Source: a virus | Virus record (IMG/VR): IMGVR_UViG_3300019458_000024 | Coordinates: 62,001 to 126,000 of that record | Length of the DNA stretch: 64,000 nucleotides | Reading direction: 5' to 3' (one strand) | Shown: positions 15,972 to 58,802 of the stretch, in pieces | Layout: each line of letters begins with the position of its first letter | Position numbering within the stretch: position 1 is the stretch's first letter | Program-made: the position numbers and the translations under genes | The notes under the pieces: model-generated | The model's database searches: none | What the model was told of the DNA's origin: nothing | Seen by the model: only the letters and a program-made list of their open reading frames with translations

Positions 15972-15985
15972 CTTTATCGTAGTGT
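15957..15985 (+). promoter_or_regulatory. Sigma-70-like promoter
   Basis: TTGACA at 15957-15962, 17-base spacer, TAGTGT at 15980-15985. The -35 is perfect, the -10 weak. It lies 30 bases upstream of the Ala-rich gene at 16015. Confidence 0.5.
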
Positions 15986-16014
15986 ACAAAATCGTAAATA
16001 AAAAGGAGATCCAA

Positions 16015-16881
16015 ATGACCCGACTATTCGCATACCACAACGATCCTGAATTCCGTGAACGCTTCCTAAAAGAAATTCGTTGGCACCAAGAGCAGGACGC
16101 CATCATCCAAGGACAGTATGAAGGACTAGTCGGTGGCCAGTGGAAAGGCTGCGCTATTGGATGCTCTCTGCGATCTTTGAACCGCCTTAACAATGACTTC
16201 AGCGACCAAGGAAATGTCTTCGCCGCGCGTCATCAGCGCTATCCAACAGAGCTTGGCATCCCCGAGGTTCTGGCCCGACTCGAAGATCGCTTGTTCGAGC
16301 TTCAATCTATGAAAGATGCCAATGCTTGGCCGCTTCGCTTCTCTGAAGCTATACGCGCAGGTGCCGACCTGTCTCTGGTATGGCCCCGATTTGCCGTCTG
16401 GATGCTAATAGATCCGACACACGGAGTCATCAACCACACCAGCGATCGCAAAGACGTTACGGACGCTGTCGCAAAAGTCGCCGCGCTTTGGCAACGCGTT
16501 GTCGATGGGGAGACAGTAAGCCCAGACGAACTTCGATCTACCTACACTTATGTCTGCGCTGCTGATGCTGCTTATGCTGCTGCTTATGCTGATGCTTATG
16601 CTGATGCTGCTGCTTATGCTGCTGCTTATGCTGCTGCTGATGCTGCTGCTGCTGCTGATGCTGCTTATGCTGCTGCTTATGCTGCTGCTTATGCTGATGC
16701 TGCTGCTTATGCTGCTGCTTATGCTGCTGTTCATGCTGCTGCTTATGCTGCTGCTGCTGCTTATGCTGCTGCTGATGCTGCTGATGCTGCTGCTTATGCT
16801 GATGCTGATGCTGCTGATGCACGACAACAGTGGGCAAAGGCAGCCGCCGACAAGCTCGTCGAACTGCTGAGGTCCTGTTAA
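16015..16881 (+). CDS. Protein with long Ala/Tyr/Asp low-complexity tail
   Basis: 288 residues from ATG 16015 with AAAAAGGAGAT upstream. Residues 1-180 form an ordinary globular part that includes QYEGLVGGQWKGCAIGCSL near residues 39-56 and WPRFAVWMLIDPTHGVINHT. The next about 90 residues consist almost only of Ala with Tyr or Asp every third or fourth position, all Ala as GCT. A charged helix DKLVELLRSC ends the protein. Phage relatives with AYAAAYA tails exist; the globular part resembles a family that often carries such tails. The tail probably forms a long alanine helix with a Tyr/Asp stripe. Confidence 0.8.
   Translation: MTRLFAYHNDPEFRERFLKEIRWHQEQDAIIQGQYEGLVGGQWKGCAIGCSLRSLNRLNNDFSDQGNVFAARHQRYPTELGIPEVLARLEDRLFELQSMKDANAWPLRFSEAIRAGADLSLVWPRFAVWMLIDPTHGVINHTSDRKDVTDAVAKVAALWQRVVDGETVSPDELRSTYTYVCAADAAYAAAYADAYADAAAYAAAYAAADAAAAADAAYAAAYAAAYADAAAYAAAYAAVHAAAYAAAAAYAAADAADAAAYADADAADARQQWAKAAADKLVELLRSC
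16557..16820 (+). repeat. GCT/TAT/GAT triplet repeat
   Basis: 264 bases built from GCT interspersed with TAT or GAT triplets inside the gene above. Such triplet runs are prone to length change by slippage, so tail length likely varies between related phages. Confidence 0.9.
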
Positions 16882-20874: not shown

Positions 20875-21134
20875 TGGTCAAGGATGATGCTGATGATCAT
20901 GATTGTATCAGATGCAATGGGGCATGTCATGTTCCATTCGGTTTTGAGAGACCTGATCATGGTCTGTGTTGGCCATGCTGCAGCGATGTCGTGAGTGAGC
21001 TGCAGGAACAGCTCACGAAGTACGGCGCGCATACGATGGCGTGCCCATCATGGGATGATCCGCGAGCTGAGTGTCACTGCACATGCGGTTGGGACGATGT
21101 TGTGAAGACAATGGAAGAGAGGAAATTGTTGTGA
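20871..21134 (+). CDS. CTCGW-family protein, paralogue 3
   Basis: 87 residues; tandem ATGs at 20871 and 20874 follow AGGAGGG, so the exact start is open. It has an additional N-terminal zinc-like part (DCIRCNGACHVPFGFERPDH, CWPCC) fused to the KYGAHTMAC and CHCTCGWDD signature. It overlaps the Pth2 start by GTGA. Confidence 0.7.
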   Translation: MMVKDDADDHDCIRCNGACHVPFGFERPDHGLCWPCCSDVVSELQEQLTKYGAHTMACPSWDDPRAECHCTCGWDDVVKTMEERKLL

Positions 21135-21535
21135 AAAATCACTATTCTGTAAAACAAACAATAGTGATTAGAACCGACCTTCAAATGACTGCTGGAAAAA
21201 TGTGTGCACAGGCAGCACACGCCTCCATGGCAGTTTTGCTCAACGCAAGTCAAAGAGAGACACTTAACGGAACACTTGTCACTGTAATCAGACACTGGAT
21301 GGATCTGACTGCTTGGTTGGACCATTCTTTTGCTAAGATCGGGCTTAGAGCAGAGTCTGAGGAAGAGCTTAGAGATATTATTCAAAAGGCTAAGGATGCC
21401 GGCTTGCCGGTAGCTGAAATTACCGACAATGGGTTTACTCATTTCAAAGGAGTGCCTACACTAACGTGTTGTGCAATTGGGCCAGCTAAGTTGGAAGAGA
21501 TTGATAAGATAACAGGTCATTTAAAGTTACTTTGA
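21131..21535 (+). CDS. Peptidyl-tRNA hydrolase 2 (Pth2)
   Basis: 134 residues from GTG 21131 with AGAGGAAA upstream. QTIVIRTDLQMTAGKMCAQA and AHASM match the Pth2 N-terminal signature; the end FKGVPTLTCCAIGPAKLEEI and DKITGHLKLL is nearly canonical, so the family assignment is firm and the protein is full length. Pth2 frees tRNA from peptidyl-tRNA when ribosomes drop off. Type 2 enzymes are typical of archaea and eukaryotes and occur in some bacteria and phages. In a phage it could sustain charged tRNA during rapid late translation. Confidence 0.9.
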   Translation: MKNHYSVKQTIVIRTDLQMTAGKMCAQAAHASMAVLLNASQRETLNGTLVTVIRHWMDLTAWLDHSFAKIGLRAESEEELRDIIQKAKDAGLPVAEITDNGFTHFKGVPTLTCCAIGPAKLEEIDKITGHLKLL

Positions 21536-23560: not shown

Positions 23561-23920
23561 ATGCCTGTAACCAAGTGTCAGATTCATGATATTGAGTACG
23601 TTACTCGTGAGTTAGCCACTACTACTTATGAAGTGTGCCCTGCTTGTGAACTACTTCCCAGTCAAGTCAAAGATTTGGAAAAGATTGAAGATCAATTTAA
23701 GGTAAATTCTGAAGTTGACAATGAAGTGCCTCCTCTCGATGTTGATAAGGTATATGGCGAGTGGCGTGATGAGATGGACACTCTAGACATGTTGAATAAT
23801 ACTGATATTTCTAAGTTGTGTGTTCAGCAGAACGAGTATCCACCTATTATGGAAGCCGGGAAAATGGTTATGGTTCATTTGGTCTCCGACGGTAAAAGGT
23901 GGCTGCTAGTTCATTTTTGA
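23561..23920 (+). CDS. Hypothetical zinc-knuckle protein
   Basis: 119 residues after GGAGGAG. CQIHDIEYVTREL and CPACELLPSQ provide a C-x-x-H...C-x-x-C site at the N-terminus. The rest is acidic, ending in a short beta part. Adjacent to the SspB-like gene. Confidence 0.7.
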   Translation: MPVTKCQIHDIEYVTRELATTTYEVCPACELLPSQVKDLEKIEDQFKVNSEVDNEVPPLDVDKVYGEWRDEMDTLDMLNNTDISKLCVQQNEYPPIMEAGKMVMVHLVSDGKRWLLVHF

Positions 23921-23937: not shown

Positions 23938-24354
23938 ATGGAAGGAGAAAAGAAAGTGGAATGGAGCAAAAAAGAAGTTATCACGAATTATTTGGATTCA
24001 TACCCAAGTGTTTTAATTCAATTTGATGCTCGTTGTGTGGGTGTGTCTGTGCCTCCTCAAATGTCAAATGATCATAGGTTGGTTTTCCGACTGGGCTATG
24101 GTTTAACTCCTCCAATTCTAGATCTTTTTACTGATAATGGCGGTATTAGCGTCACTTTACATTTTGCTGGCCGTCCTTTCTCCTGCGTGATTCCATGGGG
24201 AGCCGTTTACAGAGTCAGTGCGGAGAATCTTCCAGACTTTTATTTTTGGGAAGATTCTATGCCAACCAAAATTATGGATACGCCCGTACCAGAGCCCGTA
24301 GATTCAGAAGATACTGCTGTTTTAAAAATTCCCCATCTTAAGTTGGTAGACTAA
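23938..24354 (+). CDS. SspB-like ClpXP adaptor
   Basis: 138 residues. The core VLIQFDARCVGVSVPPQM, LVFRLGYG and VTLHFAGRPFSCVIPWGAVY matches the SspB fold, in which the FxCxxPWxA segment forms the substrate-tag groove. SspB delivers ssrA-tagged proteins to ClpXP. An acidic linker and a short hydrophobic tail (LKIPHLKLVD) follow; in bacterial SspB a comparable C-terminal peptide docks on the ClpX zinc domain. The phage copy could redirect host ClpXP to host proteins or protect tagged phage proteins. The family call is by motif; tail function is inference. Confidence 0.75.
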   Translation: MEGEKKVEWSKKEVITNYLDSYPSVLIQFDARCVGVSVPPQMSNDHRLVFRLGYGLTPPILDLFTDNGGISVTLHFAGRPFSCVIPWGAVYRVSAENLPDFYFWEDSMPTKIMDTPVPEPVDSEDTAVLKIPHLKLVD

Positions 24355-24695
24355 TGAATAGAAATAAATACGACTGGTGGGAGTCTGTTAAGGTTGTAGC
24401 TAAAAACTCTCCACAACCGGAATCTAAAGATTGTAATACTTTTCGTGGAATTGATCTTTCGGAAGATACTAGGAGACTGTGTTCCATTGATGTAACTGTC
24501 CCCGTCAATGCTAAAAAAGTTACTATGACATTCCCTTCAGAGGTAGCTATAAGCAGTAGGGAAATGTTTGAACTTAGGAGAGTGGCTGAAGTAGTTGTAC
24601 ATACTATGCCGGACGGTAGCGACTGGGTGGTTAAAGACAGAAATGGAGCAGTGCCAAGACTAATCAAACTGGGGGAAGAAAAGCCTAATAAGTGA
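24354..24695 (+). CDS. Hypothetical protein
   Basis: 113 residues, start in a TAATG overlap with the SspB-like gene, so the two are probably co-translated. Beta-rich with alternating charged residues (VNAKKVTMTFPSEVAISS). No family recognised; a partner role with the adaptor is possible. Confidence 0.65.
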   Translation: MNRNKYDWWESVKVVAKNSPQPESKDCNTFRGIDLSEDTRRLCSIDVTVPVNAKKVTMTFPSEVAISSREMFELRRVAEVVVHTMPDGSDWVVKDRNGAVPRLIKLGEEKPNK

Positions 24696-26322: not shown

Positions 26323-27342
26323 ATGAAAAATAAATTCTTTTCTACTGAAACTGCGCTTACTTACGATGATGTTCTTCTGGTTCCTGCGTATAATGGAATC
26401 TCGTCCAGAACTCAGGTTGACCTAAGTGTAGACATAGCTGGTAATGTTTTAACTTTGCCTTTTATGAGTGCCTCCATGGATACAGTGACCACTGGTCCTA
26501 TGGCTAAGGTATTAAATACATTAGGTTGTATGGGGATCGTCCACAGATTCCAACCGCTTAAAGATCGAATAGAACAAGCTGACGTATCTCCTGCAAGTAA
26601 TTTATCAAATGTAGGTATTGCAGTAGGATTGAATGATGATTTGGACGTATTGTCGGAAGTGGACACTAATGTACTTTTGTCACTTGACGTGGCACATGCC
26701 GATTCAACTCATGTGTATGATTATTTTAGTAAATTAAGGAAAAGATGTCCTAACCATGTGCTTATGGCTGGAAGTATTGTTACAGCCAAAGCTGCAAAAA
26801 ACTTTGATGCATTAGGAGCTGATGTAGTGCGATGTGGTATTGGTGGGGGCTCGGCTTGTACTACTCGTGAAGTTACTGGCTTTGGATTTCCTAATGTCAC
26901 TGCTGTTATGAACATTAGAGAGGCTGTAAATCTGCCTATCATAGCCGATGGTGGAATTAGGAAAAGTGATGATATAGCCAAGGCCATCGCTGCCGGCGCT
27001 TCGTGTGTGATGATGGGATCCCTTTTGGCAGGAACGGATGAAGCTCCTGGAGAGATTATCTCCACAAAAGAAGGTCGCAAGAAGGTCTATCAGGGTATGG
27101 CCTCTAACCAGGCTCAGATTGATTGGAGAGGTGGTTTGAAGGAAGGTACTGTGGCTGAGGGCATAAGTGGGTATGTCAATTACAAAGGTTCTGTAAAAGG
27201 CATCATAGATCAGTTAGCAGCAGGTCTCCGATCTTCCCTTACGTACGCAGGTGCTGAGAATTTAAAGGAGTTTTACGAATTAACACAGTTTATTAAAGTT
27301 ACTCCTATGTGTCTTACCTCGGAGTCAAAAACTCGTCTATAA
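26323..27342 (+). CDS. IMP dehydrogenase / GMP reductase family enzyme
   Basis: 339 residues. Opens with TYDDVLLVPAYNGISSRTQV and has the catalytic loop GGGSACTTREVTGFGFP with C179, the IADGGIRKSDDI phosphate site and GASCVMMGSLLAGTDEAPGE. CBS domains, normally inserted in bacterial IMPDH, are absent and the length is closer to GMP reductase; the YQGMASNQAQ flap does not settle which. IMPDH makes XMP from IMP toward GTP; GMP reductase makes IMP from GMP. Either would adjust the guanine pool in infected cells. It ends just before element copy 5. Confidence 0.85.
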   Translation: MKNKFFSTETALTYDDVLLVPAYNGISSRTQVDLSVDIAGNVLTLPFMSASMDTVTTGPMAKVLNTLGCMGIVHRFQPLKDRIEQADVSPASNLSNVGIAVGLNDDLDVLSEVDTNVLLSLDVAHADSTHVYDYFSKLRKRCPNHVLMAGSIVTAKAAKNFDALGADVVRCGIGGGSACTTREVTGFGFPNVTAVMNIREAVNLPIIADGGIRKSDDIAKAIAAGASCVMMGSLLAGTDEAPGEIISTKEGRKKVYQGMASNQAQIDWRGGLKEGTVAEGISGYVNYKGSVKGIIDQLAAGLRSSLTYAGAENLKEFYELTQFIKVTPMCLTSESKTRL

Positions 27343-29869: not shown

Positions 29870-30082
29870 ATGAAATATACAATTGAAACTGATTACTGTG
29901 GAATTTTTGAAGCTAAATGTGATAAGTACCCAGACGTGGCTGGAGTTGGATCAAATCCCATGGCTGCATTACAAAGGTTAGTGGGAAAACTTTTAGATAA
30001 ATTGGAAGAAAACGAATTGGAAGACGACGAAATGCTTGATTCTCTTCATGAAGAAGATTGTCTTTGTAAGGAGTGTCGCTAA
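29870..30082 (+). CDS. HicB-like small protein
   Basis: 70 residues. CGIFEAKCDKYPDVAGVGSN and PMAALQRLVGKL resemble the partial RNase H-like fold of HicB antitoxins (strand-strand-helix with a G-x-G-x-x-P-x-x-A-L turn). There is no DNA-binding domain and no HicA toxin beside it. The C-terminus is acidic and ends CLCKECR. Confidence 0.5.
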   Translation: MKYTIETDYCGIFEAKCDKYPDVAGVGSNPMAALQRLVGKLLDKLEENELEDDEMLDSLHEEDCLCKECR

Positions 30083-30084
30083 TT

Positions 30085-31431
30085 ATGTTTGAGAGTTGGA
30101 ATAGTTATCCAAAGATATGGAATATTGGCCATCCTAAAGCTACAACATTGTTCCAAGGTACTGTAATTGTTGAGGAAAAGCTTGACGGCTGTTTTCCTGG
30201 AGAGACAGTTGTGCACATGGCAGACGGCAGTAAACGTGCTATACGAGAATTGGTTGATAATCGTATAACTGACCCTGTTCGATGTTTCGATCTTGAGAAA
30301 AAAGAATATACGCAAAGTCCTATTAAAAATTGGTTTTCTTATCCTCAATCCCACAAAAAATCTGTTCGTGTTGTGCTGCAAGGCAGGAACTCGGCGTCAA
30401 GGAGTTTTTTTAGATGCAGTACAGACCACCTTATATTTACTCAAAGAGGGTGGGTACCTGCTTGTAAGTTAAGTTCAGCGGATTCTGTCCTTATCCCAGA
30501 TAAAGAATCATTTTTTATTATGCAGCCTATATATTGTGTAGAGGATGTGGTGTCTACAAGATTTTTTGATATTGAAACAGGCAAACATAATTACTTAGTT
30601 TCTGACGAGGGGGTTTTAGTTCATAATTCTCAGCTATCATTTGGACGATTTGGAGATCAAATCAAAATTAGAAGTAAAGGCAGAGAGTTCGATATTGACG
30701 GCCCGGATAGTCTTTTTGAAAAGGCTGCAGAGGTTGTGAAAATGCTGGCGCCAAATCTTCACGAAGGTTGGACTTATCGTGGAGAATATCTTGCTAAGCC
30801 AAAACACAACGCTTTGGCGTATGACCGTATTCCTAATAATCACATTATGATTTTTGATATTGCTACTAATGTAGACAACTACTTAGGCTACGCAGAGAAA
30901 AAGATTGAGGCAAACAGAATTGGCCTTGAAACAGTTCCTGTTTATCTTGTTGGAACTTTTGATAGCGCTATTCCGTTTATGGGCTTGCTTGACCGTATTA
31001 GTGTTCTTGGTGGTCAAAAAATTGAGGGAATTGTTGTAAAGAATTATTCTCAATTCACTACAGATGGTAAGCCCATGATGGGTAAATACGTGTCTGAGCA
31101 GTTTAAAGAGGTTCATGGCCACGAGTGGACTAAGGACAATCCTAAGCCCGTTGACGTATTTGGTGCCATTATAGCTAAATATGTTACAGAGGCTCGCTGG
31201 CATAAAGCAGTGCAGCATATGCGAGAAAAAGGAATGCTAGAGAATTCTCCCCGCGACATTGGCGCTTTAATAAAAGAAGTGAGAGAAGATTTCTCAGTTG
31301 AATGCGCTGATGAGATTAAAGAGGAGCTTTGGCGTTGGTTCATGAAGAAGATAGGGGCAAATGCTGTTACTCGCGGTATTCCTGAATGGTATAAAATGAA
31401 ACTTCTAGAAGGGGCTTTTGGTGAGAAATGA
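30085..31431 (+). CDS. RNA ligase-like nucleotidyltransferase interrupted by a mini-intein
   Basis: 448 residues before splicing, 302 after. Host-protein motifs: KLDG (32-35), the adenylation lysine motif I; NHIMIFDI (motif III-like); KIEGIVVKNY (motif IV-like) and MMGKYVSEQFKEV (motif V). The intein sits directly after KLDG, so EEKLDG-SQLSFG is restored on splicing. The C-terminal helical part suits a T4 Rnl2/Rnl5-type RNA ligase, though a small ATP-dependent DNA ligase is not excluded. Such enzymes repair tRNA nicks made by host anticodon nucleases. Unspliced enzyme should be inactive. Starts behind AAGGAG. Confidence 0.85.
   Translation: MFESWNSYPKIWNIGHPKATTLFQGTVIVEEKLDGCFPGETVVHMADGSKRAIRELVDNRITDPVRCFDLEKKEYTQSPIKNWFSYPQSHKKSVRVVLQGRNSASRSFFRCSTDHLIFTQRGWVPACKLSSADSVLIPDKESFFIMQPIYCVEDVVSTRFFDIETGKHNYLVSDEGVLVHNSQLSFGRFGDQIKIRSKGREFDIDGPDSLFEKAAEVVKMLAPNLHEGWTYRGEYLAKPKHNALAYDRIPNNHIMIFDIATNVDNYLGYAEKKIEANRIGLETVPVYLVGTFDSAIPFMGLLDRISVLGGQKIEGIVVKNYSQFTTDGKPMMGKYVSEQFKEVHGHEWTKDNPKPVDVFGAIIAKYVTEARWHKAVQHMREKGMLENSPRDIGALIKEVREDFSVECADEIKEELWRWFMKKIGANAVTRGIPEWYKMKLLEGAFGEK
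30190..30627 (+). other. Mini-intein in RNA-ligase-like gene
   Basis: 146 residues. Starts CFPGETVVHMADG (splicing block A with Cys1), block B CSTDHLIFTQRGWVPA with the TxxH-like TDH, block F near VEDVVSTRFFDIET, and ends VLVHN with Ser as +1. No endonuclease domain. Insertion is inside catalytic motif I. Confidence 0.92.
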
Positions 31432-37827: not shown

Positions 37828-39693
37828 ATGGCGGGTAAAAATAGAAAAATCCAAATCTTTGAATCGTCCATCGAGCGTGTGGCTCGTATTTTGTCAAAGA
37901 AATGGAAGATTCGTGTTGTATTTCAAACAGATAGGTGTGAAACCTCTGGTTCTACCATTTATCTTCCAGTACTTCCAGATAACGCTAGTACAGATCTTAC
38001 CAACGCCATGCAGGGCTATTTGGACCATGAGGCTGCACATGTCGTATACACAGACTTTAAAGCGCTCAACAGGGTCAAAAAGTTGCCTAAAACTATGACG
38101 GTGCTCAACGCCCTAGAAGATCCCAGAATTGAGAAGAAGTGGTGTGATCTCTATCCGGGTGCACGGATTAATCTAAAAAGAGCCCAAGAATGGGCTCTAA
38201 ATAAAGTGGCCGAAGAAAAGGAAATGGTTGATCCTGAGGATGGGGTAAAGAAGAAGATGCGGTCCTGGAACGGGCTTACTGATCTTGGTAAGTTTCTCCA
38301 CGCATCCATTACATATGCCTGCAATGCTTTTGATGATAGCCATTGGTTTCTGAAAGATATTGTTGAAGCTGACATTATGAATGATGTCAAAAAGTACTCT
38401 TCTTATTTTCAAAAAGCCCTTGCAGTTGACAGTACTACCGAGCTTGTTCCTATCGCTAAAGAATTGCTAGAAAAACTAGGACAAGATGATCCGGAACAGC
38501 CAGACCCAGAAGAGTCTGAAGAGGAGTCCGAAGAAGATGGTACCGGCACATCTGGAAGTCCGGCATCTAGCGGTGGAAGCTCTCCACAATCTCAAGTAAT
38601 GAACAAACAACCAAAAAATCAAAAGCAGACAGGACCTAGTCAAGCTCAGGCTGTTCCAGGCATGTTTGCTGACAAAAATGCTAACAAGAGTAGGTACGAC
38701 GTATCTGAAGAAGGCATTAAAAATGACCAAGATTTGACAAATCTTGCTGATCAGATTAAAGAAGCAGCCAAGCACGAACTAGTAAAAGAAGATTGCTATC
38801 TTGTATATACCACTGAAGGTGATTCAATTGAGCGCATCAAAGACGGAGATAGGATGCGTTATAAAGAATTCATGTTGGAATCTATTAGATTAGTAGCTCC
38901 AATGAAACGAAAAATGTCACGTAGTATGCTGGCTACCAAGCAATCTAATTGGGAGGGGGACAAGACCAGAGGTAAAATTAACCCGCGTAGGGTATACCAA
39001 GTGCCTATGGGAACGTCAAAAAGAGTGTTTCGCCAACGAGTAGAGTCTGAAGACTATGATACATGTGTGTTGATGATGGTTGACCACTCAGGATCAATGG
39101 CAGGCCCTTCGCTGGATTTGGCCGCTAAAACTTCTATTATTTTCGGAGAATTACTGAACCAAATTGGGGTACCTTTCTCTGTGTTGGGGTTCTCTACAGG
39201 TAGTGAATCCGTAGCCAGTGATCGTATTTCTAAAGCTTCAGATGAAGAGCGCACTTTGTATAGACGTTGGGGCAATCTATGGATTGGCGAATATAAAAAC
39301 TTTGAAGAATCTTGGTCTAGTGCTGGTCCTAAGATCATTAATATGGTTAGAAATAGTAAAATCAATACTTACGATGGTGAGAGTCTTAGGTATGGTGCAC
39401 AGGTTCTTTTGGCCCGTCCTGAGAAGCGCAAAATTCTATTTTGGCTAAATGATGGTTATCCGCAACCAAACTATGGTGATGATTATTCCGCACACACTAA
39501 GTATGCAAAAGACTGCGCTTTGGAAGTAGAAAAAGCTGTTGAGTTGTTTGCAATTGGTATCCGTACAGATGCAGTAAAACGTTTTTATAAAAATTGTGTG
39601 CAAGTCAATTCAGTTGAAGATCTTCCAAAAACGTGTTTGAGTGAACTTGACGCTCTGATTCGTAAAGGTAAAACTTATCATAGTAAGGGGTAA
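37828..39693 (+). CDS. CobT-like VWA protein with HExxH motif
   Basis: 621 residues. C-terminal von Willebrand A domain with the metal-site motif DHSGS near residue 419 and VLGFSTG, as in cobaltochelatase subunit CobT. N-terminal HEAAH (67-71) in YLDHEAAHVVYTDF has the HExxH form of zinc peptidases. A 70-residue acidic/Ser-Pro-Gln linker (EESEEESEEDGTGTSG) joins the halves. CobT works with the AAA+ protein CobS in cobalt insertion; no other cobalamin genes are seen here. With the CobS-like gene at 45413 it more likely forms a MoxR-VWA-type chaperone or remodelling machine. Confidence 0.8.
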   Translation: MAGKNRKIQIFESSIERVARILSKKWKIRVVFQTDRCETSGSTIYLPVLPDNASTDLTNAMQGYLDHEAAHVVYTDFKALNRVKKLPKTMTVLNALEDPRIEKKWCDLYPGARINLKRAQEWALNKVAEEKEMVDPEDGVKKKMRSWNGLTDLGKFLHASITYACNAFDDSHWFLKDIVEADIMNDVKKYSSYFQKALAVDSTTELVPIAKELLEKLGQDDPEQPDPEESEEESEEDGTGTSGSPASSGGSSPQSQVMNKQPKNQKQTGPSQAQAVPGMFADKNANKSRYDVSEEGIKNDQDLTNLADQIKEAAKHELVKEDCYLVYTTEGDSIERIKDGDRMRYKEFMLESIRLVAPMKRKMSRSMLATKQSNWEGDKTRGKINPRRVYQVPMGTSKRVFRQRVESEDYDTCVLMMVDHSGSMAGPSLDLAAKTSIIFGELLNQIGVPFSVLGFSTGSESVASDRISKASDEERTLYRRWGNLWIGEYKNFEESWSSAGPKIINMVRNSKINTYDGESLRYGAQVLLARPEKRKILFWLNDGYPQPNYGDDYSAHTKYAKDCALEVEKAVELFAIGIRTDAVKRFYKNCVQVNSVEDLPKTCLSELDALIRKGKTYHSKG

Positions 39694-39696
39694 ATA

Positions 39697-41196
39697 ATGA
39701 TTGAATTCAAGCACAATATTGATGTCCATCCCATTCAGAAAATGGGTGGAGACCACATGGTTGTAGCAGCCGCTAGGGTGTCTACACAAGGACAGGAGGC
39801 AGAAGACTTAGTCAATATGCCGGCTGATGAGCAATTTGGGTTGATCAATTATCTGATGAAGTTTCGCCACGGCACCCCTTTTGAACACAGTGCAATGACA
39901 TTTTTCGTTAACGCACCAATTTTCGTTTGGCGAGAGTGGCATCGTCACAGGATTGGTTTTTGTATTGACGGCGAGACCAAGATTTGGACGCAAAGCTACG
40001 CAGCAAACTCAGGTTTAACTGTCAGAAAACAAAGCATCAAAGAGTTGTATAACAACTGGCATAACGGTGTTATAGATTCCATAGGTAGAGTTAGATATTT
40101 GGCATCTGTTAAAGCTCAAAAGTTACGGTGCCTGAATGAAGAAACAAAATTGTTCGAAGCAGCCTCGGCATTAGATATATTGTCCACTGGACAGAAGGAA
40201 GGTTTTTTACTAGAAACTGATCACGCTAAACACAACAATCTTATTGCGTCAAAAGATCATAGAATTCTAACTGTTGACGGTTGGGCAACTATTAGTGATT
40301 TGCGTGGCGGCGAATTAATTTATGTGAATGGAAAAAGAAGTGCCCATGTTGGTGAACCAAAAATGCCTCCAGCGCTTCGTGCAGGCATAGGTGTTTGGAC
40401 CTCTATGATGCGGCGAGATTTGATCAAAAAAGTTGACCGTTGTTATATTTGTAACGATCAATTTAACGCGGAAGAGTTGGTTTTAGATCACGTAATTCCT
40501 GTAGTAAGTGATTTGACCAAAGCCTTGGATGTTAGAAATTTACAACCATGCTGTGTCAATTGCCACCAACGAAAATCGGATAGCGAGCAGAAATTTGCTA
40601 CTCGTGACATTAGAGCAGGTGCCGTACTGTCACGAGTAGCACGAAAGCCCATTGCAGTTGGACCTCGTGATATGTATGACGTAGTTATGCCAGATCCGTG
40701 GCATAACTTTGTTGCAAACGGAATAGTAGTGCACAATTCGTATAATGAGGAGAGCGCAAGATATACACAGTTGAAGCCGGTGTTTTATATTCCACATCGT
40801 GAACGAGAAATGATGAAAGTAGACGGTTGGAAACCTGGTCGTCCAAAATTTGTCCGGTGTGAAGACAAATCTGTATATACCCAATTGTATTTCAATCTCG
40901 CGCATTCCTATACGGCTTCTTACGAAGCATATCAACGCAACCTTGCCCTTGGTATAGACCCAGGTTTGGCTCGCGATTGTTTACCTGTTGGTATTTATTC
41001 TAGTTGTTGGGTCACTTGCAATCCGCGTTCTCTGATGTCTTTCCTGTCTTTAAGAATTCATAACGAAGATGCGAAGTATGTTTCATACCCACTGTATGAG
41101 ATTGAAATGGCTGCTAAAACTTGTGAGAAAATGTTCGAACAAGGTTGGCCACTTACTTATAAAGCATTTATTGAGAATGGTAGAGTCGGCCCGTGA
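39697..41196 (+). CDS. thyX: Flavin-dependent thymidylate synthase ThyX with intein
   Basis: 499 residues before splicing, 240 after, the normal ThyX length. The precursor is interrupted at RHRIGF-SYNEESARY, inside the ThyX signature RHRx7S that binds FAD and dUMP. Flanking ThyX segments (FRHGTPFEHSAMTFFVNAPI, WREWHRHR, and RDCLPVGIYSSCWVTCNPRS with SLRIHNEDAKYVSYPLYEIE) are intact. ThyX makes dTMP from dUMP with methylene-tetrahydrofolate and FADH2. Splicing is required for activity. Directly between the CobT-like and uracil-DNA glycosylase genes. Confidence 0.95.
   Translation: MIEFKHNIDVHPIQKMGGDHMVVAAARVSTQGQEAEDLVNMPADEQFGLINYLMKFRHGTPFEHSAMTFFVNAPIFVWREWHRHRIGFCIDGETKIWTQSYAANSGLTVRKQSIKELYNNWHNGVIDSIGRVRYLASVKAQKLRCLNEETKLFEAASALDILSTGQKEGFLLETDHAKHNNLIASKDHRILTVDGWATISDLRGGELIYVNGKRSAHVGEPKMPPALRAGIGVWTSMMRRDLIKKVDRCYICNDQFNAEELVLDHVIPVVSDLTKALDVRNLQPCCVNCHQRKSDSEQKFATRDIRAGAVLSRVARKPIAVGPRDMYDVVMPDPWHNFVANGIVVHNSYNEESARYTQLKPVFYIPHREREMMKVDGWKPGRPKFVRCEDKSVYTQLYFNLAHSYTASYEAYQRNLALGIDPGLARDCLPVGIYSSCWVTCNPRSLMSFLSLRIHNEDAKYVSYPLYEIEMAAKTCEKMFEQGWPLTYKAFIENGRVGP
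39961..40737 (+). other. HNH-endonuclease intein in ThyX
   Basis: 259 residues, CIDGETKIWTQ at the start and FVANGIVVHN at the end, Ser as +1. Block B is SKDHRILTVDGWATI. The central part carries CYICNDQFNAEELVLDHVIP and RNLQPCCVNCHQRKSD, an HNH nuclease with two C-x-x-C zinc pairs. This nuclease class is less common in inteins than LAGLIDADG. Confidence 0.92.
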
Positions 41197-45412: not shown

Positions 45413-46492
45413 ATGGAAACTCAACTCGAAATGAAGAATGGTAACGGAATGTCTAAAAAGCCAGAACGCAAAGCGGCACATGTAGTTCAACCAGTTGAAC
45501 GCCTTACTAAGAAGTTTGGTATCAGTGCAACTTTCGGAATTGATTTAGGCCCAGAATTAGATGACAACGACAATCCAATTCTGGACGCCTTTGGCAAGCC
45601 TGTTATGAAGGAACGGGAAGTCACAGGCTTCGTGGAGCCGGGACCAGAGACCCCTCAAATTGACCCCCACTACGTCTTCCCAGATGAAGATACCAAGATG
45701 ATTCTTTTGGGTCTTGAACTTAGGGACCGAATTTTGCTGACGGGAATGACCGGTACTGGTAAAACTTCTATTCTAGAACAGATTGCAGCACGGCTTAATT
45801 ACAACGTAATTAAAATCAATTTTGACGGTGCTATTACCAGACAAGACCTTATTGGAGAGTGGGTAGTTAAGCCTGGTACGCAGGGTTCCGGATCTATTAT
45901 GGAATTTCAATACGGAATTTTGCCACACGCATTTCAAATGCCTGGAACTATTATTATTTTGGACGAGTGGGATACTATCAGTGGGGAGTGTTCTTTTGTT
46001 CTTCAGCGCCCATTGCAAAAGGACGATGGTAAGTTGTTGATTCTTGAGAATGGAGGGGAACTTATTCCTCTACACCCACAAAATACTATCATCGCTACGG
46101 CAAATACCTGTGGTATGGGTGACGACACTGGACTACATACACAAGGAACTAAAGTTCAGAACTATGCTCAACTAAATCGTTTTAGCATGACTGTCAAAAT
46201 GCAGTATCTGAAAGCTGAAGATGAAGTTAAAATGATTCAGAAAAGGTTTCCAGACCTTAAGTCTATGGAATGCGAGGTTTTTGTAAAAGCTATCAATTTG
46301 ATTCGCGAAGCGTACGTTAGCGGCCAAATTTCCGCTCCTCTATCATCTCGTGATTTAATTAATTGGGTTGAAAAGTTTGTACTACTGGGCGACCCTATGC
46401 GAGCTGCAACTTATTGTTTTCTTAATAGAATGCCGGCAGAGGATGCAGAAACCGCCTATTCAACCCTTCAACGAAATTTTAAGGATTCATAG
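45413..46492 (+). CDS. CobS-like AAA+ ATPase
   Basis: 359 residues. Walker A GMTGTGKT (111-118), ITRQDLIGEWVV, Walker B IIILDEWD (D184/E185) and the sensor segment NTIIATANTCGMGDDTGLHT are those of CobS/MoxR ATPases. The GMGDDTGLHTQGTKVQN loop is especially CobS-like. Its partner in bacteria is CobT. Starts almost directly at element copy 11, as the CobT-like gene does at copy 9, so the two may be co-regulated. Confidence 0.88.
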   Translation: METQLEMKNGNGMSKKPERKAAHVVQPVERLTKKFGISATFGIDLGPELDDNDNPILDAFGKPVMKEREVTGFVEPGPETPQIDPHYVFPDEDTKMILLGLELRDRILLTGMTGTGKTSILEQIAARLNYNVIKINFDGAITRQDLIGEWVVKPGTQGSGSIMEFQYGILPHAFQMPGTIIILDEWDTISGECSFVLQRPLQKDDGKLLILENGGELIPLHPQNTIIATANTCGMGDDTGLHTQGTKVQNYAQLNRFSMTVKMQYLKAEDEVKMIQKRFPDLKSMECEVFVKAINLIREAYVSGQISAPLSSRDLINWVEKFVLLGDPMRAATYCFLNRMPAEDAETAYSTLQRNFKDS

Positions 46493-48795: not shown

Positions 48796-49703
48796 ACGAA
48801 GAACTAAATAAAGAGATGATGGTGAGTGAGTCTGATCCTCAGTCTTTGGAGGAACATAGTCATCATGAGCCTGATTCTTTTATGTACATCTATCGTTCTA
48901 TAGACATTAGTCGCGTGCAAGAAGATGTTGATTTTGTAGATAAATGCGTGCGAGCTGGGGTGATACCTTCTTCATTACGATATGGTGTAATGCAGCGTAA
49001 TCAAATGGTAGCGTATCGGGGCATAGTTAAATCTACTACAGATAACTATTACTACTTCAATTGGGCTCCTCAAACTGATTTTAGATTAGTTCCAGCGGAT
49101 GACGCCACTAAACAGTGGGAAGCTCAAAAACTTTTTAAGACTTGTTCTTTTGGTTGTGATATGCGCAAAGCAGAGGCTCCTCTTTCTCCTGGTGAGTCTA
49201 TTGAAGGTTGCGAAGAGGAAGAAGTCAGTGAAGACGACGCGGACAAAGCAAACGCACCTAACATTTGGCCGGCCGGTAGCCCTTCTCGCGACGAAGACAA
49301 AGATATAAGAGAACAAGAATCTGATATTACAGATGCGCACCCTGGCGCCACGATAGCGCGCACTCCAGATGACCCCAATATTGGAAGGATATGGCATGAA
49401 AAAGCTCTATCTAGACCTGGGGATGGGGCCATGCCATTAGCCACTAACGATGGGGAACAGCATTGGAACACTGCGGATTTAATGAAAGCATGGGGAAAAA
49501 AGCTTCAAGAGTCCGCTCCGGTTGTACAGCCGCAAATTACTCCATTGGAGTCTAGGTATTTGCAAGAAGTAATGGGAATGTCTCAAGCTGATGTTAATAA
49601 AGGTTTGCGCATTCCAGCTCGCCACAGAATTTCTTTCGAACAATGGAAATCTGGTCAATTGCGTTCAAACATAGATAACTTAAAATCTTGGCTTAAAAAG
49701 TGA
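48792..49703 (+). CDS. Virion-region protein upstream of portal
   Basis: 303 residues, ATGA overlap with the gene above and GTGA overlap with the portal. The N-terminal 110 residues have a globular pattern (YGVMQRNQMVAYRGIVKSTT); the middle is very acidic (EGCEEEEVSEDDADKA). C-terminal helix ends LKSWLKK. No terminase motifs are found, so the terminase must lie elsewhere. Confidence 0.7.
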   Translation: MNEELNKEMMVSESDPQSLEEHSHHEPDSFMYIYRSIDISRVQEDVDFVDKCVRAGVIPSSLRYGVMQRNQMVAYRGIVKSTTDNYYYFNWAPQTDFRLVPADDATKQWEAQKLFKTCSFGCDMRKAEAPLSPGESIEGCEEEEVSEDDADKANAPNIWPAGSPSRDEDKDIREQESDITDAHPGATIARTPDDPNIGRIWHEKALSRPGDGAMPLATNDGEQHWNTADLMKAWGKKLQESAPVVQPQITPLESRYLQEVMGMSQADVNKGLRIPARHRISFEQWKSGQLRSNIDNLKSWLKK

Positions 49704-52702
49704 GTAGGCGGAAAAAACATAAAACTTCATCTGCCCCGATGGACATGAATCACATTGTTCGTGATGTAACTGCTATGCAACTAGCATCGCAGCATATTCC
49801 GGCTCTTGTTGCACAGGAAGTTAGAAAGGCGTGGAAACAACTTCCTAATGTTGACCCCAAACAAGGTCCAAAAAGTTGGTTTCATGATCCGTTGTCTTTA
49901 CAGTACTCTCTAGGATATAAAGACAGGAGATTTAGCCTAACCTATGACACTCTGCGCAGAGTAGCAGGCCAACTTTCAATTATTAGCGCCATTATTAATA
50001 CCAGAGCCGCTCAGGTCGCTGCTTTTGCACAACCATATAGGTGGACTAAAAGTTTAGGTTTTACTATTCGTCACAAGGACTCGGACAGACAAACTACTCC
50101 AGCTGAAGTTGAATTTATTAAAGAGTTGGAGCAGTTTATTCTTAATTGTGGGCGTTCAGAGCGTAACCCATTTAGTAGGGTTCCTCGTGATGATTTTGAA
50201 ATGTTTTTGAGAAAAATGGTTCGTGACTCACTTACACTAGACCAGTGTTGTGCCGAAATCGTTCCAGATAAAGTTGGTTTGCCTTATGAATTTTATGCAC
50301 TCGATGCGTCTACTGTAAGGATAGCGGCAGACGATCGCTATGTAGGAATAAATTCATCTTATCAAAATCGTACTGGATTTGTTCCTGATATGCCGTCACG
50401 TTTTCTTGGCTTGTGGGAAGGCAGAAAATACGGAGAGGAGAATGGAGAAAAACCAATCTCATTCGTCCAAGTAATTAATGGACAGATTGAAAATGTTTAC
50501 TCGCGAGATGAATTGATGTTTGGGGTTAGAAACCCTAGAACTGATATTTGGATTCAAGGTTATGGATACAGTGAGCTTGAACAATTAATTACTATTGTTA
50601 CCTCTCATCTGTACGCAGAGGAATACAACCGCCGATTTTTCTGCATGTGCGCAGAATCATTAGTAAATACAAAAAATGGCATGATACCAATTGTAGATTT
50701 GGTAGATAAAGAATTTGAGGTATGGAATGGCAAAGCATGGCGTCGCGCAACAGCTTTTGAGACAGGTAAGCGCAATGTACGCCGCACCAAACTATGGAAC
50801 GGGCTTGAACTCAGAACCAGTCCAGACCATAAATTTCACGTAATTCCGCGTGATAGTTTAGATGGATCGGTGGAGTGGCGCACGCAAGACGCGCTAAAAA
50901 CAGACGACTATGTACTAGTAAATTATACACGAACCGATTGTCCGCTAAATTTGGAAGCACTGTTAGTGGGGAAGACATATCAGAATACGCAAGGCAAGCC
51001 TTGGACAGTGACAGAAGAAACTGTTAAAGATGTTGAATTTTGGGAAATGATAGGTTTCGCGTTAGGGGACGGTTTGTGGCCTACTTTTTCTGATGGTCGC
51101 AGCTCCATGATGATTTACCCTCACCACACTAAAGATGCCAAATTATTTGAGAAATTTTTGAAAATATGCGACAGACATGGAATAAATGCTAAGCAAAAGC
51201 AAATAAATTTACACGTCACTAGAGTTTCTGATGGGGAGACTGGCTACCCATCAATCGCAATATTTCACACTACATTTTCTGAATGGTTGCGTGAGTTAGG
51301 CTTTCGACCGTCAAATCAATCTAGACAAATCCCCAGATTCCTATTTTCACAACCGGCATGGATGAGGGAAGCGGTGTTAAGAGGGTTGTTTAGTGCTGAC
51401 GGGCACAGGCCCGCACATAAATCAGGTTACAATACACCAACCGTATTTTCTGCGTGTCCTAGTTTTCAGGCTGATATTGTGTCTTGTCTGTGGTCAGTTG
51501 GTGTGTCTGCAAATTTAGTCGGAAAGGGATGGAATCGTAATGGCAGTATTGACATACAAGATATAGATAAATTTGTAGAACATATAGGTTATCTACAAGA
51601 TTATAAGAATGAAAATATAAAACGTGCGCCTGAGTCTAAACATAGGTGGGATAAGCTGCACCCCGTCTATTGTGTATCTTTAGCAAGAAAAATAAAAGAC
51701 TCCCCAAATTGGGATCGTCTTTCTCGTAAAGACCGTGATCTAGTTTGTAAGGTGGCTCGCAATCAGTGTCAAATAAGCAGACCCAGGGCTATTTCAATAT
51801 GTGCAAATCTCGGCATTGATGGAGGGGACGCTTTGAAGTATGTTCATGCACCGGTTGATGTGTTGGATCACAAATCTTACGGCACTGAAATGATGTATGA
51901 TGTTGAAGTTTTTGATGATGAGCATATTTTTCTTGCTAATCACATGGCTGTACACAATAGCGCAGGCTCTTCTGCAAAGGGTATTTTGAACTTGAAAGGA
52001 GATAATTTTACTCCTGAGATGTTGGAGGGCTTCCGCAGACAGTGGCTAGCTCAAGTCTCCGGAGTAGAAAGTTCCTGGAAAACTCCTGTGCTACAGAGTG
52101 AAGGTCTTGAGTATATTGATCTCAATAAGACCAATCAAGAAATGGAGTTCGGTAAGTGGATGGAGTATCTACTTAAAGTAGCGGCTGGTGTCTACTTAAT
52201 TGACCCTCAAGAAATCGGTTTTAATATGCAGGGCTCGACTCAGCATTCGCCAATGTTTGAATCTAGCCAAGAATGGAAGATTAAAGCTAGCAGAGATAGA
52301 GGTCTAAAACCTCTTTTGCGTTTTTTGGCTAAAATGATCAATACCAATATTATTGATAAAATTGATGATCATTTTACTCTTGAGTTTGTCGGTCTTGACG
52401 AATTGTCTGAGAATGAAAAGCATGAAATGCTCGTTGAGCAAATCAGTTCTTATATGACTCTTAATGAAGGTCGCAGGACGCTTGGATTAAATGATCTGCC
52501 TGGTGGTGATATTCCAATGAACCCAGTATACCAGCAGGCACTGCAGCTACAAGCTCAGCAAGGAATGGGTCAAGTCTCTGGAGCGGCACCTCCTGAGCAG
52601 ACTTCAAATTTACCACCTGGTCCTGGTGGAGAAAGTGGAGTCAAACCTTCAAGCCCTCGTTACAGTGGTTTATTTGGCCATGATGATTCTGGAGAAAACT
52701 AA
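49700..52702 (+). CDS. Portal protein with LAGLIDADG intein
   Basis: 1000 residues before splicing, 561 after. Extein hallmarks of portals: YDTLRRVAGQLSIISAIINT near the N-terminus, IQGYGYSELEQLITIVTSHL and YAEEYNRRFF directly before the insertion, then SAGSSAKGILNLKGD and a LNEGRRTLGLNDLPGGD segment near the C-terminus, followed by a Gln/Gly/Pro-rich end. Portal forms the dodecameric DNA gate of the procapsid. The intein interrupts NRRFF-SAGSSAKGIL, a highly conserved stretch. GTG start overlaps the upstream stop. Confidence 0.93.
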   Translation: MSRRKKHKTSSAPMDMNHIVRDVTAMQLASQHIPALVAQEVRKAWKQLPNVDPKQGPKSWFHDPLSLQYSLGYKDRRFSLTYDTLRRVAGQLSIISAIINTRAAQVAAFAQPYRWTKSLGFTIRHKDSDRQTTPAEVEFIKELEQFILNCGRSERNPFSRVPRDDFEMFLRKMVRDSLTLDQCCAEIVPDKVGLPYEFYALDASTVRIAADDRYVGINSSYQNRTGFVPDMPSRFLGLWEGRKYGEENGEKPISFVQVINGQIENVYSRDELMFGVRNPRTDIWIQGYGYSELEQLITIVTSHLYAEEYNRRFFCMCAESLVNTKNGMIPIVDLVDKEFEVWNGKAWRRATAFETGKRNVRRTKLWNGLELRTSPDHKFHVIPRDSLDGSVEWRTQDALKTDDYVLVNYTRTDCPLNLEALLVGKTYQNTQGKPWTVTEETVKDVEFWEMIGFALGDGLWPTFSDGRSSMMIYPHHTKDAKLFEKFLKICDRHGINAKQKQINLHVTRVSDGETGYPSIAIFHTTFSEWLRELGFRPSNQSRQIPRFLFSQPAWMREAVLRGLFSADGHRPAHKSGYNTPTVFSACPSFQADIVSCLWSVGVSANLVGKGWNRNGSIDIQDIDKFVEHIGYLQDYKNENIKRAPESKHRWDKLHPVYCVSLARKIKDSPNWDRLSRKDRDLVCKVARNQCQISRPRAISICANLGIDGGDALKYVHAPVDVLDHKSYGTEMMYDVEVFDDEHIFLANHMAVHNSAGSSAKGILNLKGDNFTPEMLEGFRRQWLAQVSGVESSWKTPVLQSEGLEYIDLNKTNQEMEFGKWMEYLLKVAAGVYLIDPQEIGFNMQGSTQHSPMFESSQEWKIKASRDRGLKPLLRFLAKMINTNIIDKIDDHFTLEFVGLDELSENEKHEMLVEQISSYMTLNEGRRTLGLNDLPGGDIPMNPVYQQALQLQAQQGMGQVSGAAPPEQTSNLPPGPGGESGVKPSSPRYSGLFGHDDSGEN
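50642..51958 (+). other. LAGLIDADG intein in portal gene
   Basis: 439 residues, starting CMCAESLVNT and ending ANHMAVHN with Ser as +1. Block B TSPDHKFHVIPRD. Two dodecapeptide-like motifs, FWEMIGFALGDGLW and REAVLRGLFSADGH, mark a LAGLIDADG homing endonuclease. Confidence 0.93.
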
Positions 52703-56110: not shown

Positions 56111-56245
56111 ATGGATACCCCAAAAATTCCATATGGGGTAATCCACCCAGATCCTTTTGATTACGACCCAGACGCGTTCAGTGATGAAGAAATTGATGAC
56201 GGTTTAGAAGAACCGCCTGAGGAAGTGGTAAATGAACAAAACTGA
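56111..56245 (+). CDS. Small acidic protein
   Basis: 44 residues, MDTPKIPYGVIHPDPFDYDP followed by an acidic tail. It uses the second ATG of an ATGTATG overlapping the preceding stop, and overlaps the next gene by 14 bases. Tight fit in the operon supports it. Confidence 0.6.
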   Translation: MDTPKIPYGVIHPDPFDYDPDAFSDEEIDDGLEEPPEEVVNEQN

Positions 56246-58802
56246 GCCACTTCTACAAAGAGCTGCGCTACTCCAGGAAGCAGCTGCCGCATTATCAAAA
56301 GCGGCAAGACTAGTCACAGAAGAGGAAAGCGAATGTGGTACCTGCTGCTCTTCTTGTGAGATTGGAAAATCTTGTAGTGATACACCGGATGATGGTCTTT
56401 GTGTAGATGAATTTGCTCATGATTTATTGGCCATCGGCATTGCCCACGAACTGGAAAACACTACCAGTCAATCAGTTGCACAAGACCTTGCTATAGAAAA
56501 TCTCAAAAAAGATAAGAATTACTATAGTAATACCGATAAAGTTAAAAAATCTAAAACCTTCAATTGGAAAGTTAAAAAGAATTTTAAACCAGTTAGAAAA
56601 ATCAACTTTCAAGGGTTAGATATTTCCATTGAGCATGACACTGGAATGGTTCGCCATTGGAAAGACGAAGCTACTGGTGAAGAGGGTTTTAGAAAGATGC
56701 ATTTTCCGTATGGCTACATTTGCAGAACAGATGGGGCCGATAACGAACAGCTCGATTGTGTGCATCCGTCTACAAAGATAACCATGTCAGACTTGTCTTT
56801 GAGAACTGCGAACGAGGTGTCGATAGGCGACTCAGTTTTAGCTTTTGATGAATTGCCACATGGTAGAGAAAATCCACGCCGGCTAAAACACAGCAAAATT
56901 ACAAATATCAAAAAGGGAACAGCTAATTCGATAAAATTCACGTTTGAAGACGACTCAACATTAATAACCACTCTTGGTCATCAAAATTTGGTGTTTTCGG
57001 GTAAGGACGCTACGTGGAGAAGATCCGACAAAATTACTGTAGGTCAAGAGTTTTGTAAACTGTACGCAACAGTTGAAAATCAGATAACTAAAAAGTACGC
57101 GCAAGGTTACTTGTATGGCGCGTACTTGGGTGATGGATCTGTTAGATTGAACCATCCTACGCTCAATTATATCGACATATCAGTAGTCGTATCGGATCAT
57201 GCCATCATAGAAAGAATTTCCCAATTTTGGAAATTACTGGGAGTGCAAACTGACACAGTTTCTAGAGTTTTTACCCCCAAGCAATCTACTGCAGAAATAG
57301 AGCCTGGACGTATAGTAAAATCGACACAGGATATGATTGGCTTATTTCTTCGTAAAAAGCGGGTTATTAGCGACTGCGCAGCAACATTACAGACAATTGA
57401 GGTGTCGAATGAGCAGTGGTGTAGGGGGTTTTTAGCTGGATTGTTCGACACCGACGGATGCTTGGTACGTGGACGAGAGGTTTGTTTTACACAAGTAAAA
57501 AAACAAGAAGAAACATTTTCACTAATTTCCAGTGCTTGTGAAAAATTAGGATATAAGACTTCTAAACGAAACTTACATCTTTTCGTTTTGACTAACAATC
57601 TTAACAATTTACATGCTTTAAGTTTTTTGAGCATTATTAATCCAGTGCTATTAAGAAAAAAAGATTTAACAGGAAAAGTGGTGCGTTTCGACGCTAGCAA
57701 AGTTCGAAAAATTGAGTATCTGAAGACAGAATTTGTAGCCATTGAAACGGACGCCCAAACATACATAGCTAATGGTTTAGCTACGCACAACTGCTTCGTT
57801 GGTCCAGACGACAAATCGGACAAAGTGTACGTTGTTCATCAGATGAAAAAACCTGATTTTAAGCAGTACGATGAGGATAAAGTAATAGTAGGCGCAGGCA
57901 GTGTTAGAGAAGCAAAAAACATTTATTTAATGCACTTTGACAGTCCAAAATTCCTTGGGTCTATGACGACTACCACAATGGCCGATTTTAAAAGAATGTT
58001 TATAAACAAAAGCGGACTTTTAAAAGAATATGAAGAGCTTCGTAGAAGTGTAAAAGATGAAAAAGACGCACGGCTTAAGGGCATGTGGACCAAGATTAAA
58101 GATGCCTTCTCCGAAGAGGAGATAAAACCCACCAAAACTTGGGTTAGAAACAGTAAAGACAAGTGTAAAACTGGGGTGTGTGAGCGTTTAGACGGTCAAA
58201 AAATATCTATTGATGATACGTTTGAAGCTATGAAAGGTATGCAGGTAGACGGTCCTCCTGCGCACACAGGTTGTAAATGTGGTTTATTTTTTGAAGTATC
58301 TAAATCTATAATGCCTGAAATGGGTACGAACGTACCTAATATGGGTATGCCAATGGTAAGGATGATTGATCCTCACGACGTAGAAACTTTTGAAGGAGTT
58401 CAATCACTTATAGGACGAATGGGTTCAGTAAAAGACCCAGAACTAATGGAAATAGCGAGTAAAATATGGGGAGACGGTTACAACTTCGAAGGAAAGCGAC
58501 CAGATCAAGCGAGGGCAGAGATTCTTGGATTCCTGAGGGATCAGAGAGACCTACTAGGGGTGCAGTACGTAGAGACTTCGATACTAGAGTCACATCCTAT
58601 GCTAAATTCACAGGACACGGCATCCCCTGGATCATCAGACTATTACAACGAATCTCCGAACTCGGAAAAGCAGGAGGCCCTGGGGCAACCAGAGGGCAAC
58701 TCCTTAGGAGAGGAGTCTCAGGACACACAATCGACGAATTGGTCGGATCAGGACTCCTCAAAGAAACCAAAGACGGATTCATCAGAAAATACAGTGTTGT
58801 AG
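56232..58802 (+). CDS. MuF-like head protein with InPase-like domain and LAGLIDADG intein
   Basis: 856 residues before splicing, about 511 after. N-terminal helical and Cys-rich part (ESECGTCCSSCEIGKSC). Extein GYICRTDGADNEQLD-CFVG and PDDKSDKVYVVHQMKKPDFK match the inorganic-pyrophosphatase-like domain of phage polyvalent proteins; the intein interrupts its acidic core at QLD-CFVG. Then TWVRNSKDKCKTGVCERLDG and PPAHTGCKCGLFFEV form the MuF head-morphogenesis C-terminal motif. From about 58560 the codon pattern and protein quality switch to the -1 frame (see separate entry), so the last 80 residues in this frame are doubtful. Confidence 0.85.
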   Translation: MNKTEPLLQRAALLQEAAAALSKAARLVTEEESECGTCCSSCEIGKSCSDTPDDGLCVDEFAHDLLAIGIAHELENTTSQSVAQDLAIENLKKDKNYYSNTDKVKKSKTFNWKVKKNFKPVRKINFQGLDISIEHDTGMVRHWKDEATGEEGFRKMHFPYGYICRTDGADNEQLDCVHPSTKITMSDLSLRTANEVSIGDSVLAFDELPHGRENPRRLKHSKITNIKKGTANSIKFTFEDDSTLITTLGHQNLVFSGKDATWRRSDKITVGQEFCKLYATVENQITKKYAQGYLYGAYLGDGSVRLNHPTLNYIDISVVVSDHAIIERISQFWKLLGVQTDTVSRVFTPKQSTAEIEPGRIVKSTQDMIGLFLRKKRVISDCAATLQTIEVSNEQWCRGFLAGLFDTDGCLVRGREVCFTQVKKQEETFSLISSACEKLGYKTSKRNLHLFVLTNNLNNLHALSFLSIINPVLLRKKDLTGKVVRFDASKVRKIEYLKTEFVAIETDAQTYIANGLATHNCFVGPDDKSDKVYVVHQMKKPDFKQYDEDKVIVGAGSVREAKNIYLMHFDSPKFLGSMTTTTMADFKRMFINKSGLLKEYEELRRSVKDEKDARLKGMWTKIKDAFSEEEIKPTKTWVRNSKDKCKTGVCERLDGQKISIDDTFEAMKGMQVDGPPAHTGCKCGLFFEVSKSIMPEMGTNVPNMGMPMVRMIDPHDVETFEGVQSLIGRMGSVKDPELMEIASKIWGDGYNFEGKRPDQARAEILGFLRDQRDLLGVQYVETSILESHPMLNSQDTASPGSSDYYNESPNSEKQEALGQPEGNSLGEESQDTQSTNWSDQDSSKKPKTDSSENTVL
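56757..57791 (+). other. LAGLIDADG intein in MuF/InPase-like gene
   Basis: 345 residues, CVHPSTKITMSD at the start and YIANGLATHN at the end, Cys as +1. Block B TTLGHQNLVFS. Dodecapeptide motifs YLYGAYLGDGSV and FLAGLFDTDGC mark the homing endonuclease. Confidence 0.93.

Follow-up and report, generated by a model that had tools for sequence, protein, structure and literature searches.

The window analysed here comprises 64,000 nucleotides, bases 62001-126000 of a 162,637-base virus contig from IMG/VR. At 23938-24354 of its plus strand it contains an open reading frame of 138 aa, starting with ATG at 23938 and ending with TAA at 24354, that codes for a protein related to the bacterial ClpXP adaptor SspB. 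A ribosome-site-like AGGGG was found ~10 bases upstream of the start, and at the other end the letters TAATG make the next gene begin on the stop codon; this second gene is probably co-transcribed with sspB. An alternative in-frame GTG at 23899 would give a product of 151 aa; the extra stretch would run into the preceding gene and is not part of the homologous region. The following features could be delimited:

23561-23920, plus strand: neighbour gene, 119 aa, with a zinc-ribbon-like N-terminus (sequence motif Cx2H...Cx2C)
23938-24354, plus strand: phage sspB gene, 138 aa (ORF with SD-like AGGGG; Pfam SspB, Myxococcota homologues and PDB fold matches)
23968-24003, plus strand: N-terminal helix region, residues 11-22 (helix predicted at 11-21; aligned with the N-terminal helix of Myxococcota SspBs)
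24004-24264, plus strand: beta-rich SspB core, putatively substrate-binding, residues 23-109 (aligned with 30 Myxococcota SspBs; Pfam residues 27-96)
24265-24333, plus strand: flexible linker of 23 aa, residues 110-132 (low model confidence; the shortest among the SspBs measured)
24334-24351, plus strand: XB-like ClpX-docking tail HLKLVD, residues 133-138 (aligned with YLRVVK/HLRLVD/YLKLVD tails; unique among 765 contig ORF ends)
24354-24695, plus strand: neighbour gene, 113 aa, its start overlapping the sspB stop (TAATG)

In E. coli SspB the core binds the client peptide and the tail tethers the client to ClpX. The 138-aa phage protein is a real SspB homologue. The Pfam family SspB (PF04386) matched residues 27-96 with E=6.7e-5 and 23.4 bits, below the curated cut-off of 27 bits. 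In tblastn the protein was 36-40% identical to chromosomal Myxococcota SspBs, with matches in 47 of the 113 genomes of this phylum and the best of them at E=2.4e-20 (40% identity); in a separate search one Myxococcales contig matched at 37% identity (E=2e-16 relative to candidates). Both Myxococcota homologues that were checked lie above the Pfam SspB cut-off, and in the alignment of the phage protein with the Myxococcota SspBs the conserved residues of the core are largely retained. The phmmer comparison with PDB gave weak matches to the SspBs of Caulobacter (E=0.0082) and H. influenzae (0.11), and the pairwise similarity to E. coli SspB (about 23% identity) was not significant (E=0.017), but a profile built from the phage protein and seven Myxococcota homologues found E. 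coli SspB in PDB with E=6.9e-9.

The AlphaFold model obtained from a two-sequence alignment had a low mean pLDDT (48.9), with values of 49-69 in ten-residue blocks along residues 11-100, and a single-sequence model was too poor for use (pLDDT 38.9). Searched against PDB, the former gave SspB structures for all of its 19 best fold matches (probability 1.00, query-length TM 0.44-0.57); among them are structures with bound ssrA or RseA and the ClpXP delivery complex 8et3. The SspB-like core noticed in the sequence-only reading was thus borne out by profile, homologues and fold, and the predicted structure has the SspB fold on which that proposal had been made to depend. The helix region at residues 11-22 is where known SspBs dimerise, and the phage protein may do so as well.

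The C-terminus of the phage protein, IPHLKLVD, aligned with the ClpX-docking (XB) tails of the Myxococcota SspBs, nearly all of which end in an XB-like motif (e.g. PPYLRVVK, SHLRLVD, SYLKLVD, VPHLRLVK or GHLRRVK), and it also lines up with the E. coli SspB tail ALRVVK. For the XB peptide of E. coli, RGGRPALRVVK, binding to the ClpX N-domain has been described (PMC3983244). Of the 765 ORFs with 60 or more aa on the whole contig, the phage SspB alone ended in such a motif, and the internal rate of the motif in the contig ORFs was 4.2e-4 per position. The terminal residue is D instead of the usual K, but the LVD end was also found in two bacterial SspBs (L007 and L022). Hence, the hydrophobic tail described from the letters alone does sit where the bacterial homologues carry their docking peptide. 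The linker described with it as acidic is also there, the shortest measured (23 aa, others 25-276), although its acidity is only mild, with five D/E against two K/R in 23 residues.

To place the protein among its relatives we compared 39 SspBs in a tree in which those of Bdellovibrionota, Desulfobacterota and Alphaproteobacteria were not included. The phage protein has a long branch (4.05) and lies within the Myxococcota set, grouped with two Myxococcota SspBs (99/96 support). The other six phage SspBs, those of pf16, RAY and phiKZ among them, all fell into a separate group with that of E. coli (98/98), so judging from the sequences the acquisition looks independent of that of the other phage SspBs. 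Most likely the gene was taken from a Myxococcota-like host and then evolved fast, and the host of this large phage is probably myxobacterium-like. Since the SspBs of other phyla are outside the tree sample, Myxococcota as donor or host should be taken as a lead and not as a result. Furthermore, the GC content of the phage gene (41%) and of the contig (42%) is lower than that of the Myxococcota SspB loci (about 54-76%), and the true host may be a low-GC relative of the sampled Myxococcota.

One of the Myxococcota genomes (G001) also codes for a 182-aa protein (L006:1387-1935, plus strand) in which an SspB-like core (PF04386, E=2.4e-4) is found together with a ClpX-type zinc-binding domain (PF06689, E=8.2e-7), the domain normally docked by SspB tails. 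No full-length relative of this fusion appeared elsewhere in the search of 113 Myxococcota genomes.

Viral relatives were looked for in several ways. Known phages searched with the phage SspB and with a Myxococcota SspB gave none, nor did the IMG/VR scans with the phage, L002 and L007 SspBs, which used short exact peptide patterns that may miss distant relatives. One 8-kb stretch of the contig had no relative in the phage collection either. Two IMG/VR contigs related through the CobS gene, both of which may be fragments, had no SspB match. The CobT-like VWA protein (37828-39693) and CobS-like AAA ATPase (45413-46492) of the window, both on the plus strand, are 44-51% identical to their counterparts on IMG/VR contig L004.

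Partnership with sspB had been suggested for the genes at 23561 and 24354, and we found no support for it: neither belongs to a confident Pfam or PHROG family or had a relative in the IMG/VR search. The zf-C4_ClpX family (PF06689) gave no Pfam match to the 23561 product up to E=1, and by Pfam it is not of the ClpX type. In such a dense phage gene cluster, adjacency alone says little about partnership. Other genes of the window, all on the plus strand, include an IMP dehydrogenase / GMP reductase-like enzyme (26323-27342, E=6.6e-87), a ThyX interrupted by an HNH-containing intein (39697-41196), an RNA-ligase-like protein with a Hint module (30073-31431) and a 299-aa protein (15982-16881) with a long series of AAYADA-like repeats making up its C-terminal part. 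By eye, intein-like insertions were also seen in portal-like (49700-52702) and head-gene-like (56232-58802) proteins.

Homology, fold and docking tail all support the original proposal of a phage-encoded ClpXP adaptor of the SspB type. We consider it quite probable that the protein works as a compact SspB adaptor, docking on host ClpX and delivering chosen proteins to ClpXP. A peptide signal on the client protein would be held by the folded core, which is probably dimeric. The short linker and the HLKLVD tail would attach the adaptor to the zinc-binding N-domain of host ClpX, and the client would then be unfolded and degraded by ClpXP. During infection the adaptor could add to or redirect host ClpXP, for instance to clear products of stalled translation that carry the ssrA tag or to remove selected proteins of the host or the phage. 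The classical SspB client is the AANDENY of the ssrA tag (PMC8512704). No tmRNA was found on the phage contig, so the clients would be host-tagged proteins or untagged ones with a fitting peptide. When the contig ORFs were searched for ssrA-like tails, three weak candidates emerged, including a 778-aa tail-sheath-like protein. In the same cluster, 2.4 kb upstream of sspB, there is a peptidyl-tRNA hydrolase of the PTH2 type (21071-21535, plus strand, E=7.5e-33), which fits a translation-rescue theme without proving it.

The adaptor reading is weakened by the terminal D, the short linker, the low confidence of the model and the lack of a tmRNA on the contig, as well as by the Pfam score below the cut-off and the long branch, which indicate that client specificity may have changed. 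A more daring version, to which we attach a small likelihood, is that an adaptor with changed client choice steers the ClpXP of a Myxococcota host onto specific host defence or regulatory proteins. It would then be a naturally occurring, phage-made factor for targeted degradation, with an acquisition separate from that of the gamma-proteobacterial phage SspBs. Alternatively, client binding could have been lost or changed in a protein that still docks on ClpX by its tail, which would then act as a decoy or brake by occupying the adaptor site or sequestering clients, with less ClpXP activity on phage proteins. Such an effect has a precedent, since the XB peptide by itself is enough to inhibit the SspB-dependent delivery and degradation of certain substrates (PMC3983244), and the core has strongly diverged. 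However, a brake would need the tail only and not a conserved core, the residues of which are largely kept here, and we regard this role as improbable. Less credible again is a protein of SspB fold that no longer works with ClpXP and has another role or none, its tail likeness being a relic; the sub-threshold Pfam score and the IMG/VR scans empty by the patterns used would agree with it, but the ORF is intact in a dense gene cluster and the docking motif has been preserved despite about 60% divergence of the core. Mere chance resemblance, which the Pfam score taken alone might suggest, is ruled out by the Myxococcota homologues (E=2.4e-20), the aligned tail and the SspB-only fold matches, and we give it practically no weight.

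Phage SspBs as such are already known, and the present protein is a new, divergent and independently acquired case. The gp18 of Pseudomonas phage pf16 was reported as the first of them in 2017 (PMC5587285), and the SspB-like gp39 of Erwinia phage RAY, published in 2023, is cytoplasmic in infected cells (PMC10299810). Both match PHROG 8945, "stringent starvation protein Sspb-like". E. coli SspB matches 75 records of the phage collection, phiKZ gp232 among them. At least one of these records (H2) is a contig from a bacterial assembly, and a few more may likewise not be phage genes. The phiKZ protein (L042:571-1479), annotated as hypothetical in most related records, begins with an SspB-like domain, continues with a long insert and carries a docking-like motif four residues short of its C-terminus. 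A docking-like tail is kept in five of the six other phage SspBs read (pf16 PTLRVVK, RAY PTLTVVK, AH06 PSLSIVK, SNUABM_54 PKLTIVK and phiKZ PKLTVIK+GGKK), or six of seven with the present one. That the adaptor has been captured repeatedly, mostly with its docking tail kept, suggests a benefit for large phages in steering the ClpXP of the host. In the present case a large phage appears to have acquired independently an adaptor from an SspB clade that differs from all the phage cases compared, and the gene provides a hint of a Myxococcota-like host for a contig that, by the 8-kb stretch searched, has no relative in the phage collection.

Compared with the known systems, pf16 gp18 shares with the present protein a phage-borne SspB core, a shortened linker and an XB tail (LRVVK), but it is of the gamma-proteobacterial kind, with 52.8% identity to E. 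coli SspB, and falls into a different clade of the tree. RAY gp39 and the PHROG 8945 family are likewise phage SspB-like ClpXP adaptors, yet they belong to the separate clade and the PHROG 8945 profile did not match the present protein, which had no PHROG match at all up to E=1. The SspBs of E. coli and H. influenzae (1ox9, 1ou8, 8et3) have the same fold and tail position (ALRVVK in E. coli), although in sequence the E. coli protein is only about 23% identical (pairwise E=0.017). The closest likeness is to the chromosomal SspBs of Myxococcota (e.g. L007, L008 and L002), which resemble the phage protein over its full length, core and docking tail included, at 36-40% identity, have in common with it the LSPPI/LTPPI motif and, in L007, the HLRLVD/HLKLVD tail, and differ from it in that the phage version is shorter, with its linker of 23 against 25-276 aa, and is encoded by an AT-richer gene on a phage contig.
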